Assembly: GCA_017512465.1 (NCBI GenBank)
Contig: JAFWGH010000156.1
Location: 1-48,889 of the forward strand
Length of the DNA stretch: 48,889 nt
From: Clostridia bacterium
GTDB taxonomy: Bacteria > Bacillota > Clostridia > Oscillospirales > Acutalibacteraceae
Reading direction: 5' to 3'
The notes under the pieces are model-generated. The model did not search any database. It was given only the letters and a program-made list of their open reading frames with translations, and was not told the origin of the DNA. Shown here piece by piece: positions 17,301 to 36,936 of the stretch. A program made the translations under genes and the position numbers. Positions within the stretch are counted from its first letter, which is position 1, and the number at the start of each line of letters is the position of its first letter.

Positions 17301-17529
17301 GAGGATTTGTCGCGCTGTTCTATGAACAGCAATTATGAATTAAGAATGTTGAATGTTGAATTAAGGAAGGGCTCCGCCCTTACCCATTAGAAGCCGCAAG
17401 CGGCGTAGTTATAATATTATCGGGTGCGGGTGTCCCGCCCACAATTCAAAATTCATAATTCAAAATTCAAAATTTCAAATAAGGATTTGCGAGGTCGTAG
17501 ACCTCGACAAATCCTTATTTGTCGAGGTC
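17301..17529. repeat. Palindromic intergenic element, copy A
   Basis: Fills the ylbF-miaB spacer. A decayed left tip (GAGGATTTGTCGCGCTG) is followed by tandem GAAT-rich motifs and a GGGCTCCGCCC core. A GCCGCAAGCGGC mini-hairpin (17393-17404), a GGGTGCGGGTGTCCCGCCC core and inverted ATTC-rich motifs follow. It ends in a closed tip hairpin: AAATAAGGATTTG (17477-17489), CGAGGTC-GTA-GACCTCG, CAAATCCTTATTT (17508-17520). A further perfect palindrome, GACCTCGACAAAT-CCTT-ATTTGTCGAGGTC (17500-17529), extends into miaB and supplies its stop codon. No transposase is present. Confidence 0.8.
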
Positions 17530-18921
17530 TCCTTTTACAATCCATGTCAGGCTCTCCGTCACCTTCACATCGGCATACTGCCCGATAAGGCTTTCATCAC
17601 CCTCAAAATCGATGATGACATTTGCATCGGTCCTGCCGCACAAATGCCCGGCTTCTTTGCCCGGCTCCTCCACGAGCACGCGGTAGGTATTGCCTTTCAT
17701 GGCGGCGGTGCGCTTAGAGGCTATTTCTGATTGCACATCCAGCAGCTCTCGAAACCACTTTCCCTTTTCTTCTGCCGAAACAGGGTCGTCCATTTTAGCC
17801 GCGGGTGTGCCGCCGCGCGGGGAAAAGATAAAAGTAAACAGTGAAGTGAACTCCACCTCTCTTATCAATGAAAGGGTGTCCGAAAACTGCTCGTAGGTTT
17901 CACCCGGGAAGCCGACAATGACATCGGAAGTCAGAGACAAATCGCTGATGGTTTGTTTGGCATACGCGATTAATTCCAAATACTTTTCACGCGTGTATTT
18001 GCGGTTCATCGCTTTTAATATTTCATCGTTGCCCGATTGGAAGGGCAAGTGCAGGTGATGCGAAACATGCTTTGAGTGCGCGATGGTATCAATTAATTCC
18101 CTTGTGCAATCCTTCGGGTGCGAGGTCATAAAGCGAATTTTAAAATCGCCCTCGAGCGCATCTAACTTTTGAAGCAGTGCCGCAAAGGAAGTATCCTCAC
18201 CGGTATCATTGCCATAAGAATTTACATTTTGCCCAAGCAGTGTGATTTCTTTATAACCGGCGGCAATAATCTCCTTTGCCTCGGCAAGGATATCGCACTC
18301 CTTGCGGCTTCTCTCCCTGCCCTTGACATAAGGCACAATACAGTACGAACAGAAATTATTGCACCCGTACATAATCGGAAGCCAAGCTTTAAACGCTCCG
18401 TCACGGTGAATGGGAAGCCCCTCGGCAATCACACCGTCACTCTCATCGGTACAGCACACCTTTTTTCCGGTGAGCACGGTATAGAGAAATTCGGGTAAAC
18501 GGTGATTGACATGTGTGCCGAAAATCAAATCCACAAACGGATAGCTCTTTTGAAACTTTTCACTCACGGCGCTTTGCTGCACCATGCAGCCGCACAAAGC
18601 GATTATCATGCCTTTTTTGCGCGCCTTGTAGTGCTTAAGCGCGCCCACATTGCCGAACACACGATGCTCGGCATGTTCACGAATGGCACAGGTATTATAC
18701 AGCACCAAATCGGCTTCTGCCAAATCATCACACAGGACATAGCCCATCTCCTCGAGCATGCCCTCTATGTGCTCGCTCTCTGCCACATTACCCTGACAGC
18801 CGTAGGTATGCACATAGGCTTTCGGAGGTTGCGCATAGCGGCTTTCAAGCAGATGCGAAACGAGCGCCGCAAATTCTCTTTGCCGCTCTAATTCGGTTGT
18901 TGATACCATAGCACCCTTCAC
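17515..18921 (-). CDS. miaB: tRNA-2-methylthio-N6-dimethylallyladenosine synthase
   Basis: About 468 residues, a radical-SAM methylthiotransferase completing ms2i6A37 in tRNA. The UPF0004 domain has three cluster cysteines (TYGCQGN, NTCAIREHA, CGCMVQQ), the radical-SAM core has CNNFCSYCIVPYVKGRERSR, and a TRAM RNA-binding domain lies at about 400-465. The frame opens at 18945, but that codon sits almost on the predicted transcript start. The GTG at 18921 has GGAGGAG (18928-18934) six bases upstream, so I chose it. The last codons (D-L-D-K-stop) lie within repeat element A. It heads the mutS-mutL-division transcript. Confidence 0.94.
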   Translation of the reverse strand: MKGAMVSTTELERQREFAALVSHLLESRYAQPPKAYVHTYGCQGNVAESEHIEGMLEEMGYVLCDDLAEADLVLYNTCAIREHAEHRVFGNVGALKHYKARKKGMIIALCGCMVQQSAVSEKFQKSYPFVDLIFGTHVNHRLPEFLYTVLTGKKVCCTDESDGVIAEGLPIHRDGAFKAWLPIMYGCNNFCSYCIVPYVKGRERSRKECDILAEAKEIIAAGYKEITLLGQNVNSYGNDTGEDTSFAALLQKLDALEGDFKIRFMTSHPKDCTRELIDTIAHSKHVSHHLHLPFQSGNDEILKAMNRKYTREKYLELIAYAKQTISDLSLTSDVIVGFPGETYEQFSDTLSLIREVEFTSLFTFIFSPRGGTPAAKMDDPVSAEEKGKWFRELLDVQSEIASKRTAAMKGNTYRVLVEEPGKEAGHLCGRTDANVIIDFEGDESLIGQYADVKVTESLTWIVKGDLDK

Positions 18922-19016: not shown

Positions 19017-19050
19017 GCACAATAATAAGTAATATTCGACAACAGGCATA

Positions 19051-19342
19051 CAAATAAGGATTTGTCGGGCAGAGCAAAACGCGTTTTGCTCTGCAGTTTG
19101 GAGAGTGGAGAGTTGAGAGTGGAGTTAAGGGAGGGCTTCGCCCTCACCCGATTGTAAGTGCGGCAAATGCCGCACTAAAAGTTTGAAGTGTGGAGAGTGG
19201 AGAGTGGAGTTTTGGTGGCAACGCACAGCGTTGCAATTTAAAATGCGAAACGCAGTTTCGCCACCACTCTTCACTCTTCACTATTCACTCTTCCCTCAAA
19301 TAAGGATTTGGGAGCCGCAAGGGCTCCGCAAATCCTTATTTG
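19051..19342. repeat. Palindromic intergenic element, copy B
   Basis: 292 bases bounded by CAAATAAGGATTTG (19051-19064) and CAAATCCTTATTTG (19329-19342). The left tip carries a 12-bp hairpin GCAGAGCAAAAC/GTTTTGCTCTGC (19069-19094). Inside are tandem GAGAGTGGAG motifs, a GGGAGGGCTTCGCCCTCACCCG core, the mini-hairpin AGTGCGGC...GCCGCACT (19157-19176), and inverted ACTCTTCACT motifs. The right tip is a closed hairpin with inner stem GGAGCC/GGCTCC. It ends one base before the spo0A stop codon. Confidence 0.85.
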
Positions 19343-21946: not shown

Positions 21947-22253
21947 CAAATAAGGATTTGTCGGGCTCTTTTGAGCCCGCAAATCCTTATTTGAGTGAAT
22001 AGTGAATAATGAATAGTGAATAATTGAGGGAGGGACACCCTCACCCGATTGATAAAGAATTGTGTTATTCTTATATTTGATGATTTTTGCTGAAATTAAG
22101 CCATTTCTCCCCTTTGGGGAGATGTCGACATAGTCGACAGAGGGGGATATAATCAAGTGCGAATGTGTCGCCCTTAACTATTCATTATTCATTATTAATT
22201 ATTCATTTAATAAGGAATTTGCGAGGTCATAGACCTCGACAAATCCTTATTTG
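21947..22253. repeat. Palindromic intergenic element, copy C
   Basis: About 307 bases filling the gap between the DUF6056-like gene and the nrdR promoter. Left tip: AAATAAGGATTTG (21948-21960), CGGGCTC-TTTT-GAGCCCG, CAAATCCTTATTTG (21980-21993). Then come tandem AGTGAATA motifs, a GGGAGGGACACCCTCACCCG core and two adjacent perfect 7-bp hairpins (TCTCCCC-TTT-GGGGAGA 22106-22122; TGTCGAC-ATA-GTCGACA 22123-22139). Inverted ATTCATT motifs follow. Right tip: slightly decayed AATAAGGAATTTG, CGAGGTC-ATA-GACCTCG, CAAATCCTTATTTG (22240-22253). It touches the stop codon of the gene at 22254. Confidence 0.85.
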
Positions 22254-23636
22254 TCATCCCATTAACGGATGCTCAATAAGGATAAATGCGATACATTCTA
22301 CGAGGGCAAAAACCCCTGCATAAGCCTTTGCAAGTTTTAATAAGCCCCCGCGCATTTTTCCTGTCGGCAGTGCCGCAAACAACAGTGCTGCCGCAAAGCT
22401 TATCAACATATTGCCGATGAAAAATACGCGCTGTCCCGATGCAAATATAGACGATGAAAAGCCCATCGCCAGTGCACAGCCTGCTGCCGCACACAACAAA
22501 ACAAGCACACACATACCAAGGCGCACATTGGTTTTTAAGTACATCACCACCAAAGCCGCCGCATAAATAACCGCCGCGATGCCGCCCGCAGCCAAAATGA
22601 TGAAAGATGCGGAAAACTCCTGATTCAAATAGGCGCTGCGCACAATTTGATGTGCCAAGCCTTTTTCCAGAATAATTGCCGCAAGATGGCAAAAAAGTAT
22701 CACGCCGAGAAAGACAAAGAAAGAGTATTTAATCCATTTTGAGCGCTGCTCACTGCGGTAATAAAGATGTAAGCACAGCAAAGCGACAACAAATGCAAAC
22801 AAAAAGACCGATAAATACACGGTATGAGCTATACCGACCGTGGTACCGCAAAAGAGTTTTTGCAGTACATTCATCTCGGAAAAAGCGGGAAACTCTTCGC
22901 CCTCAAATGCTATACGGCTGCGCACACCCGGCGCATGCAATAAATAGTAAGAAAAGAATGCACCGATGATAAAATCGATGAATAAAAACACCTTACACTT
23001 CTTTTTTGCAACGCAGTACACGATGCACACCGCTTCTATAAACAAAAACACTGCCAGCGCCTGCTCTTGTGAAACCGCCAGCACTGCCGCCGGAACGGAG
23101 CAAAGCCAAGTGCTTAGGCGCACCTCTTCCCCTAAACAGTGAAATACTGCCGGTGCGAGCGCGCAAACCACGCCGAACAGCGGCACAAGGTAAGTAAACG
23201 AAGCGCTAAACCAAAATGCCGATGAATTGATGCACGAAACAATCATAAAAAACAGCGCACAACAGCAAAATACAAAGCTGCCGCGGGTGTCCTCGCTGCG
23301 GCTAAACAGCTTGCTCAAACGGCATAAAAATGCCGCAAGGTATGTATAAATCGCCGCACACATCAGCTTCCACCAAAAGATGTTTCTGCGCACAAAAAAC
23401 ATAGTTAAAAACTCGATAATGGTTCTGCCGGAAAGCTCTTCATAGCGCTGTGTTAAAAACGCCTTGTAGGAAAAGCCTTCCTCAAAAGCGGCAGCTAAAA
23501 AATTGCCATCATCCGTTTTTGGCAAAAGCCTTGTAAACAGAAGATAAAACAATGTGATACATACCGCAAAAACAACCACCGGCGCATAGGGGTATTCGGC
23601 AAATTTATGAAATTTTTGTTTAATCGAATGTAACAT
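22254..23636 (-). CDS. Polytopic membrane protein, DUF6056-like
   Basis: About 460 residues with roughly ten to twelve membrane segments. An early outside loop holds TDDGNFLAAAFEEG, followed by YEELSGRTIIEFLTMFF, acidic and SGR-type motifs reminiscent of DUF6056 and other GT-C-like envelope proteins. The start is uncertain: the frame opens at a GTG (23666), while the ATG at 23636 gives a natural cytoplasmic N-terminus (MLHSIKQKFHKF); neither has a convincing ribosome site. It overlaps the DUF6273-like gene, so the two are probably co-expressed with rfbACD. A role in building or decorating a rhamnose-containing surface polymer is plausible but inferred. Confidence 0.6.
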   Translation of the reverse strand: MLHSIKQKFHKFAEYPYAPVVVFAVCITLFYLLFTRLLPKTDDGNFLAAAFEEGFSYKAFLTQRYEELSGRTIIEFLTMFFVRRNIFWWKLMCAAIYTYLAAFLCRLSKLFSRSEDTRGSFVFCCCALFFMIVSCINSSAFWFSASFTYLVPLFGVVCALAPAVFHCLGEEVRLSTWLCSVPAAVLAVSQEQALAVFLFIEAVCIVYCVAKKKCKVFLFIDFIIGAFFSYYLLHAPGVRSRIAFEGEEFPAFSEMNVLQKLFCGTTVGIAHTVYLSVFLFAFVVALLCLHLYYRSEQRSKWIKYSFFVFLGVILFCHLAAIILEKGLAHQIVRSAYLNQEFSASFIILAAGGIAAVIYAAALVVMYLKTNVRLGMCVLVLLCAAAGCALAMGFSSSIFASGQRVFFIGNMLISFAAALLFAALPTGKMRGGLLKLAKAYAGVFALVECIAFILIEHPLMG

Positions 23637-27065: not shown

Positions 27066-27299
27066 CAAATAAGGATTTGTCGAGGTCTTACGACCTCGAA
27101 GAGAAAAGAGAAAAGAGAAGAGAGAAGAGTGGTGGGAGGGCTCTGCCCTCACCCGAATTGAAAGTGCCGCAAGCGGCACAGATATAAGCTTTATAATCGG
27201 GTGCGGGTGTCCCGCCCTTCACTATTCACTATTCTCTCTTATCTCTTCACTCAAATAAGGATTTGGGAGCCCGCAAGGAGCTCCGCAAATCCTTATTTG
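27066..27299. repeat. Palindromic intergenic element, copy D
   Basis: 234 bases bounded by CAAATAAGGATTTG (27066-27079) and CAAATCCTTATTTG (27286-27299). Left tip inner hairpin: CGAGGTC-TTAC-GACCTCG (27081-27098). Then follow tandem AGAGAAAAGAG motifs, a GGGAGGGCTCTGCCCTCACCCG core, mini-hairpin GTGCCGC-AA-GCGGCAC (27164-27179), a GGGTGCGGGTGTCCCGCCC core and inverted CTATTCTCTC motifs. The right tip is closed (CAAATAAGGATTTG 27252-27265, inner GGAGC/GCTCC). It fits exactly between the nifJ terminator and the rfbA promoter. Confidence 0.85.
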
Positions 27300-35146: not shown

Positions 35147-35662
35147 TTATTGTAATTTCATCTTTTCCAAATAGCCTTTTTTCTCGATGAGCATGGCAAG
35201 CGGGGTACCTGCAATCAGTACCACTACAACTTCGCCGGCGGCAACGCAAAGGCATAAAAGCCATAAGGGTGATTCATCTCCCAAATAAAATTTGAGTTCC
35301 AGACCAACGATGATGGCATTAAAAATCGCCGGCATAGACAAGGAAAGAAGCGGCATGCCTTTGAGGCGAATGTTGCGCAACTTCCAGATGCAAATGGCAG
35401 CCAGCAGTGTGGCAAGCGAGCCGAAAAGCACATCTAAGGGCAATTGCCCGATATTGCCGATATTGGCGAGCACACAGCCCAGGGTTAATCCCCAAATTGC
35501 AGCCGGTGTCCACAGTGCAAATATGCAAAGTAATTCTGCAACGCGAAATTGCACCATCATGGATGTCGTGCCGGGCAAGAGCATATTTTGTGCATAAACA
35601 AGCGCAGCATACAGCGCCGCTATCATCGCACCCTGCACGAGAGAAAGTGTCCTTTTGTTCAT
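35147..35662 (-). CDS. queT: QueT-type transporter (ECF substrate-binding subunit)
   Basis: 171 residues with five to six membrane segments. The pattern GAMIAALYAALVY ... VQFRVAELLCIFALWTPAAIWGLTLGCVLANI ... LDVLFGSLATLLAA ... PAIFNAIIVGLEL is that of the QueT family (DUF988), predicted S components of energy-coupling-factor transporters for queuosine precursors. The ECF ATPase module is not in the window and is usually shared. GGAGG lies upstream of the ATG. The 5' leader has alternative structures, consistent with the riboswitch control often found for this family. It is monocistronic with two tandem terminators. Confidence 0.85.
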   Translation of the reverse strand: MNKRTLSLVQGAMIAALYAALVYAQNMLLPGTTSMMVQFRVAELLCIFALWTPAAIWGLTLGCVLANIGNIGQLPLDVLFGSLATLLAAICIWKLRNIRLKGMPLLSLSMPAIFNAIIVGLELKFYLGDESPLWLLCLCVAAGEVVVVLIAGTPLAMLIEKKGYLEKMKLQ

Positions 35663-35686: not shown

Positions 35687-35750
35687 TTTTGATGTAAAAG
35701 TGCATCAAAAAATTTACACTTTTACACAGGCAGGATGGTTTCGAACTGCC
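35687..35750 (-). promoter_or_regulatory. Structured queT leader, candidate riboswitch
   Basis: In transcript order: a hairpin GGCAG/CTGCC with a 12-nt loop (35750-35729), then TGTAAAAGTG (35726-35717), then a perfect 8-bp hairpin TTTTGATG/CATCAAAA (35710-35687) whose loop and 3' arm contain CACTTTTACA. That segment is fully complementary to TGTAAAAGTG, so the second hairpin and the long-range helix exclude each other. The architecture recalls small preQ1 riboswitches, but the conserved preQ1-I bases are not obvious. There is no U-tract after the hairpin. Confidence 0.45.
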
Positions 35751-35754
35751 TTAT

Positions 35755-35951
35755 GCAGTGCTTTGCACTGCTTGATATGCATTTCTACGAAATTCTCGAT
35801 ATGTTTATTTCATAAACTCGATATAAATTTCTTCGAAATTTTCGATATGCCGCAAGCGGCAAGAAATTTATATCATATCGAATGCAATTCATTGCATATA
35901 TCGAATTTTGTATTGACAAAATATATCGAATTGCCGTAGGCAATATATCGA
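35755..35951. repeat. Array of about eight unlike mini-hairpins with a constant linker
   Basis: Hairpins with 5-7 bp stems and 2-4 nt loops at 35755-35771, 35781-35793, 35803-35817, 35825-35841, 35848-35861, 35882-35897, 35905-35922 and 35930-35944. Each has its own sequence. In the left half they are separated by TCGATATR (35796-35803, 35818-35825, 35842-35849; the first linker is the variant TTGATATG). In the right half they are separated by the reverse, ATATCGA (876-882 region, 35898-35904, 35923-35929, 35945-35951). The array spans the gap from the queT leader to the acyltransferase stop codon. No reading frame or spacer-repeat pattern of a CRISPR is present. Confidence 0.85.
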
Positions 35952-35953
35952 CA

Positions 35954-36820
35954 TTAAAGCTTGCCGCATGCAAGCGCAATCACGGCAGTGATGGCGACCA
36001 GCACAGGTTGGTGGATAAGATATACCCAAATGGTGTTACGCCCGATGGCATTGATAAAGCCGACTCCGAAGGAGTTGGTTTTTTCTCTGAATTTGCTGTC
36101 TTTAATTAAATTCCAAAAATAATAGCCGGAAAGAAAGAGGAATATCCACGGAATGATGGGAAAATAATCCGAAGAAGAAAACGCGGGACTATCAAAGCCG
36201 AGCCATTCCATGCCGAGATGTGTGTAGAGTGCATGCGGCAACTGAATAAGGCGAATGCGCTCCGCTTCATGCGCGCCGAAAGTAAGGCCGATATAGCCTG
36301 CCGGTATCTTTTCGGTGAGGATATACACTCCTCTTGTTAACAAATACAATAACAAGCCGAGCGGCGCACCGATAGCAGAGGGCACTTTATCAAATGCCTT
36401 TTGGCACAACCCCATGAGTAAACATGCGCAGCCGATAAAATGCAAAATGCCAAACCAGATGAACACACCGCTAAAGCCGACTTTGTTCATCACCAATTCC
36501 GCAATAAAGGTCACTATCGTGATGATGATGCCGAAGCCGAGTACCCTTGCGCCGTTTTTGAGATTGTTTCTGGAAAAGTGACAGCACACCCCCGAAAGGA
36601 AAATAAATGTGCCGCAGCTGATTTGCTGCCAATACCAGGCGATATTGGTGCCGAGAAAGTTCTCTACCGCTTTAAAGCCCGCAATATCCGCTAAATCCCA
36701 TGCAAAATGATACAGCAAGACACTGATAATCATAATGCCCTTGATAAAGTCAATCAGCTCATATCTGCCGCGCTGCAGTTTGCCCGCATCTGAAGTTTTG
36801 AAAAGTTTTGTCAGTTTCAT
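35954..36820 (-). CDS. DUF1624 (HGSNAT-like) membrane acyltransferase-type protein
   Basis: 288 residues with about eight membrane segments. The N-terminal signature RYELIDFIKGIMIISVLLYHFAWDL with its membrane His, followed by FIFLSGVCCHFSR, matches DUF1624/heparan-alpha-glucosaminide N-acetyltransferase-like proteins, which may acylate envelope glycans; the substrate here is unknown. The frame opens at 36904 inside repeat F, but the ATG at 36820 gives a natural start (MKLTKLFKTSD). Its ribosome site is weak. The stop codon lies two bases from the hairpin array. Confidence 0.82.
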   Translation of the reverse strand: MKLTKLFKTSDAGKLQRGRYELIDFIKGIMIISVLLYHFAWDLADIAGFKAVENFLGTNIAWYWQQISCGTFIFLSGVCCHFSRNNLKNGARVLGFGIIITIVTFIAELVMNKVGFSGVFIWFGILHFIGCACLLMGLCQKAFDKVPSAIGAPLGLLLYLLTRGVYILTEKIPAGYIGLTFGAHEAERIRLIQLPHALYTHLGMEWLGFDSPAFSSSDYFPIIPWIFLFLSGYYFWNLIKDSKFREKTNSFGVGFINAIGRNTIWVYLIHQPVLVAITAVIALACGKL

Positions 36821-36865
36821 ACTAATTGCTATAATTACGAAATAAAATGTAAAAAGTAAAAACAC

Positions 36866-36936
36866 ATTAGAGCGTAGCGGAACGGGTGAGGGTGTCCCTC
36901 CCACAACTCTTCACTATTCACTCTTCACTATTCACT
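36866..36936. repeat. Partial intergenic element, copy F
   Basis: Short relative of the dispersed elements: TTAGAGCGTAGCGGAACGGGTGAGGGTGTCCCTCCC, the core seen in copies A-E, then inverted CTCTTCACTATTCACT motifs. The AAATAAGGATTTG tips and the other arm are missing. It lies between the pfkA terminator and the acyltransferase gene. Confidence 0.6.

Follow-up and report, generated by a model that had tools for sequence, protein, structure and literature searches.

Arrays of unlike hairpins joined by a constant linker, and their link to PF05635 genes in gut Clostridia

Introduction

The 48,889-nucleotide stretch analyzed here (the window) comes from a Clostridia bacterium of the family Acutalibacteraceae (assembly GCA_017512465.1, contig JAFWGH010000156.1) and carries, at positions 35755-35951, a run of small hairpins whose stems differ from one another while the same short linker, TCGATAT or its reverse complement ATATCGA, recurs between them. 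The question raised by this locus is what kind of sequence keeps its shape and its linker while its stems are free to change, and whether it has relatives. A first-pass annotation, made from the sequence alone, had placed the array at the correct coordinates and had left room for a sequence that occurs once only, with no relatives and no covariation, which is clearly not what was found. The element is real, widespread and unexplained; it has a defined architecture, a family of relatives, a linked gene of the PF05635 family (here IVP) and linkers which have co-evolved with that gene. The copy in the window is an orphan. The reading that we favor, with reservations, is that gut Clostridia harbor a mobile DNA element, complete when a hairpin-linker array is followed by an IVP gene, and that the window carries a non-autonomous copy of it.

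Results

Architecture of the array in the window

Eight hairpins in all are present in 35755-35951, in agreement with the first estimate of about eight perfect or near-perfect ones: a resident hairpin (L0) and seven array hairpins (L1-L4 and R1-R3), all of them perfect except L1, which has one mismatch. The array consists of four hairpins spaced by TCGATAT, an apex strand of 14 nt, and three hairpins spaced by ATATCGA. Exact copies of TCGATAT start at 35796, 35818, and 35842, and exact copies of ATATCGA at 35875, 35898, 35923, and 35945, so that the linker described as constant stands in seven exact copies, three in one orientation and four in the other, while the first linker is degenerate (TTGATAT). 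The reported flip of the linker in mid-array is real, the left linkers being the reverse complement of the right linkers and able to pair with them across the halves. The apex strand, named X'', had been overlooked. L0 is probably a host hairpin beside the element rather than a part of it, since the genomes G002, G003, and G004, which are without the array, hold a different hairpin at the matching place. The parts are as follows.

35755..35771, plus strand: L0 hairpin GCAGTGC-TTT-GCACTGC, resident hairpin adjoining the element
35772..35778, plus strand: linker 0, degenerate TTGATAT (TCGATAT in the G001 orthologue)
35779..35795, plus strand: L1 hairpin GCATTTC-TAC-GAAATTC; linker 0 and the L1 5' arm together form strand X
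35796..35802, plus strand: linker TCGATAT
35803..35817, plus strand: L2 hairpin GTTTATTTCATAAAC; G001 has GTTCATTTCATGAAC, a compensatory pair change
35818..35824, plus strand: linker TCGATAT
35825..35841, plus strand: L3 hairpin AAATTTC-TTC-GAAATTT
35842..35848, plus strand: linker TCGATAT
35849..35860, plus strand: L4 hairpin GCCGC-AA-GCGGC, at the apex
35861..35874, plus strand: apex strand X'' AAGAAATTTATATC, opening with the AAGA/GAGA motif typical of left-half ends
35875..35881, plus strand: linker ATATCGA
35882..35897, plus strand: R1 hairpin ATGCAATTCATTGCAT
35898..35904, plus strand: linker ATATCGA
35905..35922, plus strand: R2 hairpin ATTTTGT-ATTG-ACAAAAT (loop GTTA in G001)
35923..35929, plus strand: linker ATATCGA
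35930..35944, plus strand: R3 hairpin ATTGCCGTAGGCAAT
35945..35951, plus strand: terminal linker ATATCGA, right end of the element

Distribution of the family

Searching for TCGATAT-hairpin units, as had been proposed, recovered related copies both in the host genome and in its relatives. Two TCGATAT linkers spaced 8-24 nt apart occur 21 times in the host genome, compared to zero occurrences of a reversed control pattern, and further arrays lie on its contigs C17, C37 (two tandem copies), C62, C139, and C173. Within the genus, G001, G003, and G006 gave 32, 31, and 13 linker-pair hits respectively, mostly with hairpin spacers; across the host family the distribution is patchy, with clear arrays in G070, G043, G127, and G114. 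When public genomes were scanned for three successive linkers, at least 119 stretches were identified, including many in metagenome-assembled genomes of Clostridia and Oscillospiraceae from ruminants and other herbivores. Most of the Clostridia matches listed were arrays of perfect, unlike hairpins, whereas the non-Clostridia matches that were read proved to be plain tandem repeats or chance.

The full element is composed of two convergent halves, which are also found solitary or divergent; left halves on their own are met in both orientations and in many genomic settings. All collected loci together gave 187 distinct half-arrays (nine on viral contigs), of which 96 contain exactly four linkers; AAGA or GAGA mostly comes next after the terminal hairpin. 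With four linker-hairpin units and three further hairpins the count is nearly fixed, so the array is not seen as growing or shrinking, and the proposal that the linkers serve as joining sites of an assembling array is not supported. Few true arrays were found on viral contigs. One human-gut contig filed as phage (L477) carries an IVP gene and a full array with AGTGATATT linkers directly after a tRNA gene and its terminator.

Association with IVP genes

In several full elements the right end is flush with the ribosome-binding site of the same gene, which encodes a protein of about 115 aa. This protein belongs to PF05635 (23S_rRNA_IVP; TIGR02436), a four-helix bundle whose nearest solved chain is 2rld. 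IreB (PF06135), prompted by one copy beside an alanyl-tRNA-synthetase-like gene, was considered as the partner and rejected when the translation showed PF05635. Among IVP genes of the host family that were picked by protein alone, the same architecture was found upstream with at least seven other linkers (GTGAAGT, GTGATGT, TGAAAT, ATGAAG, GTTATATT/GTGATATT, ATGATGTT, GTTATG, and TGGAAT).

A linker-agnostic detector was run on 112 IVP genes, of which 104 had been picked by protein alone (76 from the host family and 28 from other families) and the rest came from TCGATAT-array loci. At a score of at least 2, 40 of the 112 upstream regions were positive, as against three of 112 downstream regions, none of 112 shuffled sequences, and one of 336 random windows. 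Without the eight array-picked loci 32 of 104 were positive, that is 31 of 76 in the host family and one of 28 elsewhere. Seven low-scoring loci (L370, L373, L378, L379, L385, L405, and L419) are also arrays when read by eye.

In a tree of 82 IVP proteins (113 columns; many forks are weak) the array-bearing genes are gathered in one supported clade (97/88), all but a few of whose 48 rows have a detected array, and the hairpin-linker array appears to be confined to this one clade of the host family. The IVPs of TCGATAT arrays form a single subclade (99/89), and mapping linker labels on the tree required 18 changes, compared to a mean of 42 after shuffling. Linker and protein thus evolve together, and it is mainly because the linker labels follow the IVP tree that we regard array and gene as partners. 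That the linkers matter, as first supposed, is borne out both by their pairing across the halves and by the way their sequence tracks the phylogeny of the protein.

A second kind of IVP-associated repeat occurs across phyla: IVP genes on a Treponema plasmid (L478), on a Bernardetia plasmid (L479), and at L364-L371 and L388-L398 are flanked by the short tandem repeats GATGAAAGTGGAAAG, TTAGTGATTAGTGA, and GGAATTAGGAATGAGG, often on both sides and in inverted orientation. The plasmid IVPs that were read have short tandem repeats in place of hairpin-linker arrays. Association with repeats looks general in the PF05635 family.

Folding and stem variation

As single-stranded DNA the window array folds far better than its shuffles (z = -9.05, 0/200); as RNA the z score is about -5 on either strand. 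The array at L156 folds as DNA or as RNA into a nested ladder (z = -6.3 and -5.2 respectively), in which the predicted pairing of left with right linkers leaves the hairpins projecting to both sides as a chain of four-way junctions. Such left-right pairing accounts for the flip of the linker in mid-array, and left and right linkers are complementary in every linker subfamily.

The supposition that shape is kept while sequence is free proved correct, the stems changing on both sides while pairing stays. Comparison of 14 full TCGATAT elements drawn from many genera gave 8-13 different 5' arms per hairpin position; their stems are mostly perfect, the majority having at least 4 pairs. Perfect stems of at least 4 pairs were counted in 340 of 555 linker-bounded segments; a slightly different count passes 372 of 569 segments, with about 12 expected after shuffling. 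The check for stem covariation found a compensatory change from T-A to C-G in L2 between the window and its G001 orthologue. L1 is mismatched in both of these arrays, and L3 is mismatched in G001.

Strand X pairs locally with the 3' arm of L1 and has an alternative partner in X'', the apex strand after L4. This complementarity recurs with unrelated sequences (GATATGAATTC/GAATTCATATC, GATATTGCTCC/GGAGCAATACC, CTAAGTGTGCC/GGCACACTTAA, GTTATATTCGCC/GGCGAATATAAT, and AATGAAATAAATCCC/GGGATTTGTTTCATT). Complementary runs of 8-16 nt were present in 41 of 45 IVP-linked arrays (mean 11.1 nt, compared to 0.9 nt after shuffling) and runs of at least 10 nt in 40, a figure which is an upper bound for X:X'', the best run in a number of arrays being a linker-linker or terminator match. 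The window keeps the relation with mismatches (GAAATTTATATC in X'' against GATATGCATTTC), while G001 has one mismatch fewer (GATATGAATTTC).

Relation to Gut-1

The first-pass annotation knew of no named family with this design, which was nearly right: an Rfam scan of the window region gave no meaningful hit, and the one named relative that was found, the 77-nt fragment called Gut-1 RNA (RF01706), is not matched by the window copy. In the Gut-1 consensus UGAAAU linkers connect three hairpins, which corresponds to one half of an array, and the window array shares this plan of three consecutive hairpins and a constant short linker, with TCGATAT replacing UGAAAU. Half-arrays at L424 (both strands), L406, L407, L369, and L413 exceed the gathering score of the Gut-1 model (50 bits). 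The matches to relatives with other linkers, of the TGAAAT type or related to it, score 50-60 bits and fall exactly on half-arrays upstream of IVP genes; L378 and L387 match below the gathering score. No match to Gut-1 was obtained in the window region even at E<=1, nor at the other TCGATAT loci that were tested. Gut-1 is a half-array of the TGAAAT-type linker subfamily, and its model, limited to one half, is without the second half, the X'' strand, the IVP gene, and the other linkers. No link of Gut-1 to IVP genes, and no earlier description of the hairpin arrays, the linker string, or IVP-linked repeats, was found in open-licence papers.

DNA or RNA

A structured noncoding RNA, or an RNA antitoxin or leader, would explain the array as a transcript which folds and regulates or binds IVP, in the manner of the tandem-repeat RNA of type III toxin-antitoxin loci or of a 5'-UTR regulator, with the orphans as stand-alone small RNAs. 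We consider this alternative unlikely. In its favor, Rfam lists the TGAAAT half-array as the Gut-1 small RNA, which was judged most likely to be a noncoding RNA and was reported from human-gut sequence only (Weinberg et al., 2010; PMC2864571). The array also stands 5' of a small protein gene, abutting its ribosome-binding site in the TCGATAT subfamily, and folds well as RNA, and PF05635 proteins resemble Avd of diversity-generating retroelements (PMC10053308). The array-linked IVPs differ from the Avd systems in that no neighboring reverse transcriptase was noticed, and from the classic 23S rRNA IVP in that they do not lie inside 23S rRNA.

Against the RNA explanation, the loops fit hyperstable DNA types, and do so only relative to the orientation of the linker. 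Read in linker orientation the triloops are T-N-C/T and the tetraloops T-N-N-C, with a closing C-G pair, so that the opposite strand reads C-GNA-G and C-GNNA-G; 25 arrays built on other linkers show this polarity as well. The loops d(C-GNA-G) and d(C-GNNA-G) are reportedly unusually stable in DNA, according to work by Hirao and colleagues and by Nakano, Bevilacqua and colleagues. RNA tetraloops would be expected to favor GNRA, unlike the tetraloops found here, in which position 3 is a pyrimidine in 75%. Because loop polarity follows the linker, a single transcript would have the poor loop in half of its hairpins. Mini-hairpins of extraordinary stability are known in both DNA and RNA (PMC10527192), and Weinberg et al. 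(2010; PMC2864571) argued from loops in the same manner, in the opposite direction, for the STAXI motif.

At several IVP loci, belonging to several subfamilies, a promoter-like TTGAAA...TATAAT (read by eye) separates the array from the gene, which would leave the array outside the IVP mRNA at those loci. The occurrence of left halves alone, in either orientation and in many contexts, also argues against the RNA explanation, and the plain string of hairpins in RNA that had been suggested for the window is not supported. Together the loop preferences and promoter positions are suggestive of folded DNA rather than RNA.

Genomic context and possible mobility

Of six informative species, G000 and G001 have the array at the window locus and G002, G003, G004, and G006 do not; in these four, other short sequence and usually a different hairpin occupy the place. 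G005 has another gene there. On the L134 contig two copies lie 1.7 kb from each other; their outer hairpins differ, L1 shows a compensatory change, and X'' matches in one of the two. An inverted repeat directly before the array was detected for 14 of 20 IVP arrays at a score of at least 9 (2 of 100 control positions), and for 13 of 49 TCGATAT left halves at a score of at least 7 (0 of 98 controls). Many of these preceding repeats are bidirectional terminators, often of tRNA genes. At L421 and L437 the final codons of a GMP-synthase-like gene, with its stop, recur in inverted form as the repeat; at L392 it is the tRNA-Ser 3' end that recurs inverted, and in G001 and G006 this tRNA-Ser has no such copy.

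Different IVP elements are found independently at the 3' ends of the GMP-synthase-like gene (L400, L421, and L437) and of a 23S rRNA uracil-methyltransferase-like gene (L124, L128, and L427), both names resting on C-terminal sequence. These two gene ends are possible insertion hot spots.

Similar inverted copies exist at tRNA loci without a detected array in G000, G002, G004, and G005. At five apparently arrayless loci (L501, L502, L504, L505, and L509) a tRNA gene is followed by its terminator and then by an inverted copy of the 3' part of the tRNA, 12 to about 35 nt long. The inverted tRNA copies are a fold-back phenomenon of this genus, and their presence at arrayless loci shows that fold-back events are common there; insertion could thus either make such copies or use them.

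The inverted copies of tRNA 3' ends and gene ends, beside elements and at arrayless tRNA loci alike, are what would be expected if the array were a passive product of replication, generated by template switching at hairpins (quasi-palindrome correction or fold-back synthesis) with neither function nor partner. We regard this explanation as improbable, since it predicts none of the identical linkers, the four-plus-three count, X'', the loop polarity, the IVP neighbor, or the agreement between linker and IVP tree.

A further explanation, very improbable and rejected here, is that the arrays are related to REP/RAYT or IS200/IS605 elements and, being non-autonomous, are mobilized by a Y1 transposase that works on hairpins in single-stranded DNA, to which hairpin targets would be suited. 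Y1/RAYT genes are present in most array-bearing genomes, but no association of a Y1 transposase gene with arrays was found: the RAYT-like genes that were examined have GGGGACGGTTCT repeats of their own on both sides and in no case arrays, G005 has RAYT genes and no TCGATAT arrays while G114 has arrays and no detected Y1 gene, and no GTAG motif of the REP type was seen by eye. The RAYT-like Y1 transposase genes at L316-L323 are bracketed by GGGGACGGTTCT/AGAACCGTCCCC repeats.

Other features of the window

Both genes next to the window array were read, and no IVP gene lies beside it. They are host genes outside the element, and a second dispersed repeat family, composed of inverted repeats around a short palindromic or tandem sequence, is found elsewhere in the window.

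35147..35662, minus strand: queT (QueT transporter), flanking gene
35954..36904, minus strand: HGSNAT_cat/acyltransferase-like gene, stop codon 2 bp from the right end of the array
17476-17530, ~19050-19342, 21949-21993, 22207-22260, and 27252-27299: CAAATAAGGATTTG/CAAATCCTTATTTG inverted repeats

The queT leader (35729-35750, minus strand) contains a strongly conserved hairpin, GGGCAGTTCGAAACCATCCTGCC, which is also present upstream of queT in G001-G004 and G006 and is followed by a variable stretch of about 50-250 nt and then by CAAAACTACGGAGG. It resembles the preQ1-I riboswitch (stem, UUC loop, distant A-rich tail), with no Rfam family match at E<=1.

Discussion

In the reading that we favor, an orphan copy of a mobile element formed by array and IVP gene, separation of the strands would allow the array to fold as a DNA ladder of four-way junctions, with the linkers as rails and the hairpins as rungs. 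Oligomers of IVP would recognize the oriented linker-hairpin units, and IVP together with host replication or repair enzymes would copy or move the array to hairpin-adjacent sites. During the copying or moving step L1 may alternate between two forms, its local hairpin and the X:X'' helix, and arrays without IVP, such as that of the window, would be served in trans. Binding of IVP to the linker, movement of the array, folding of the DNA in vivo, and the chemistry of transposition are all steps that we infer.

Several points weigh against this reading. The genome of the window, a draft of 193 contigs, yielded no IVP gene accompanied by a TCGATAT array, the nearest such gene being in G001. We saw no case of transposition with a clean target-site duplication, and at the window locus the flanks are too diverged to define the exact empty site; the window element has dyad symmetry without a definable target-site duplication. 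No nuclease or transposase motif is known in PF05635, so that the enzyme which would cut or join DNA is missing from the model. For the stems alone, template switching that keeps hairpins perfect may be a neutral alternative. TCGATAT arrays end against the IVP ribosome-binding site, which leaves no room for a promoter, and in that subfamily the array could be part of the mRNA leader. Finally, G-T and A-C mismatches (2 versus 7) are too few to settle strand or molecule.

REP/RAYT, MITE, BOX, and ERIC elements are likewise short, dispersed, intergenic, and hairpin-forming, with many gene-less copies and a protein acting in trans; they conserve the sequence of the stem with little variation, whereas the arrays described here keep only linker and architecture, and the partner protein is not a known transposase. 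Type III toxin-antitoxin systems likewise place a structured tandem repeat immediately before the gene of a small protein; our arrays differ from them by their dyad symmetry, dispersed orphans, DNA-suited loops, and unrelated protein family.

More tentatively, these elements may represent a new class of mobile DNA in which a four-helix-bundle protein of the IVP/Avd type reads a tree of DNA four-way junctions through a co-evolving linker "password" and copies it beside host hairpins; Gut-1 would then be half of a DNA structure and not an RNA, and many IVPs would serve repeated DNA. PF05635 proteins are common in bacteria, and no established function was found for them; a co-evolving partner with an exact sequence for each protein makes their function testable. 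The orphan Rfam family Gut-1 is re-explained and given a role that can be tested. As the element keeps its shape while nearly every base changes, it can escape sequence-based repeat finders, and it provides a natural example of a DNA junction architecture that looks designed.
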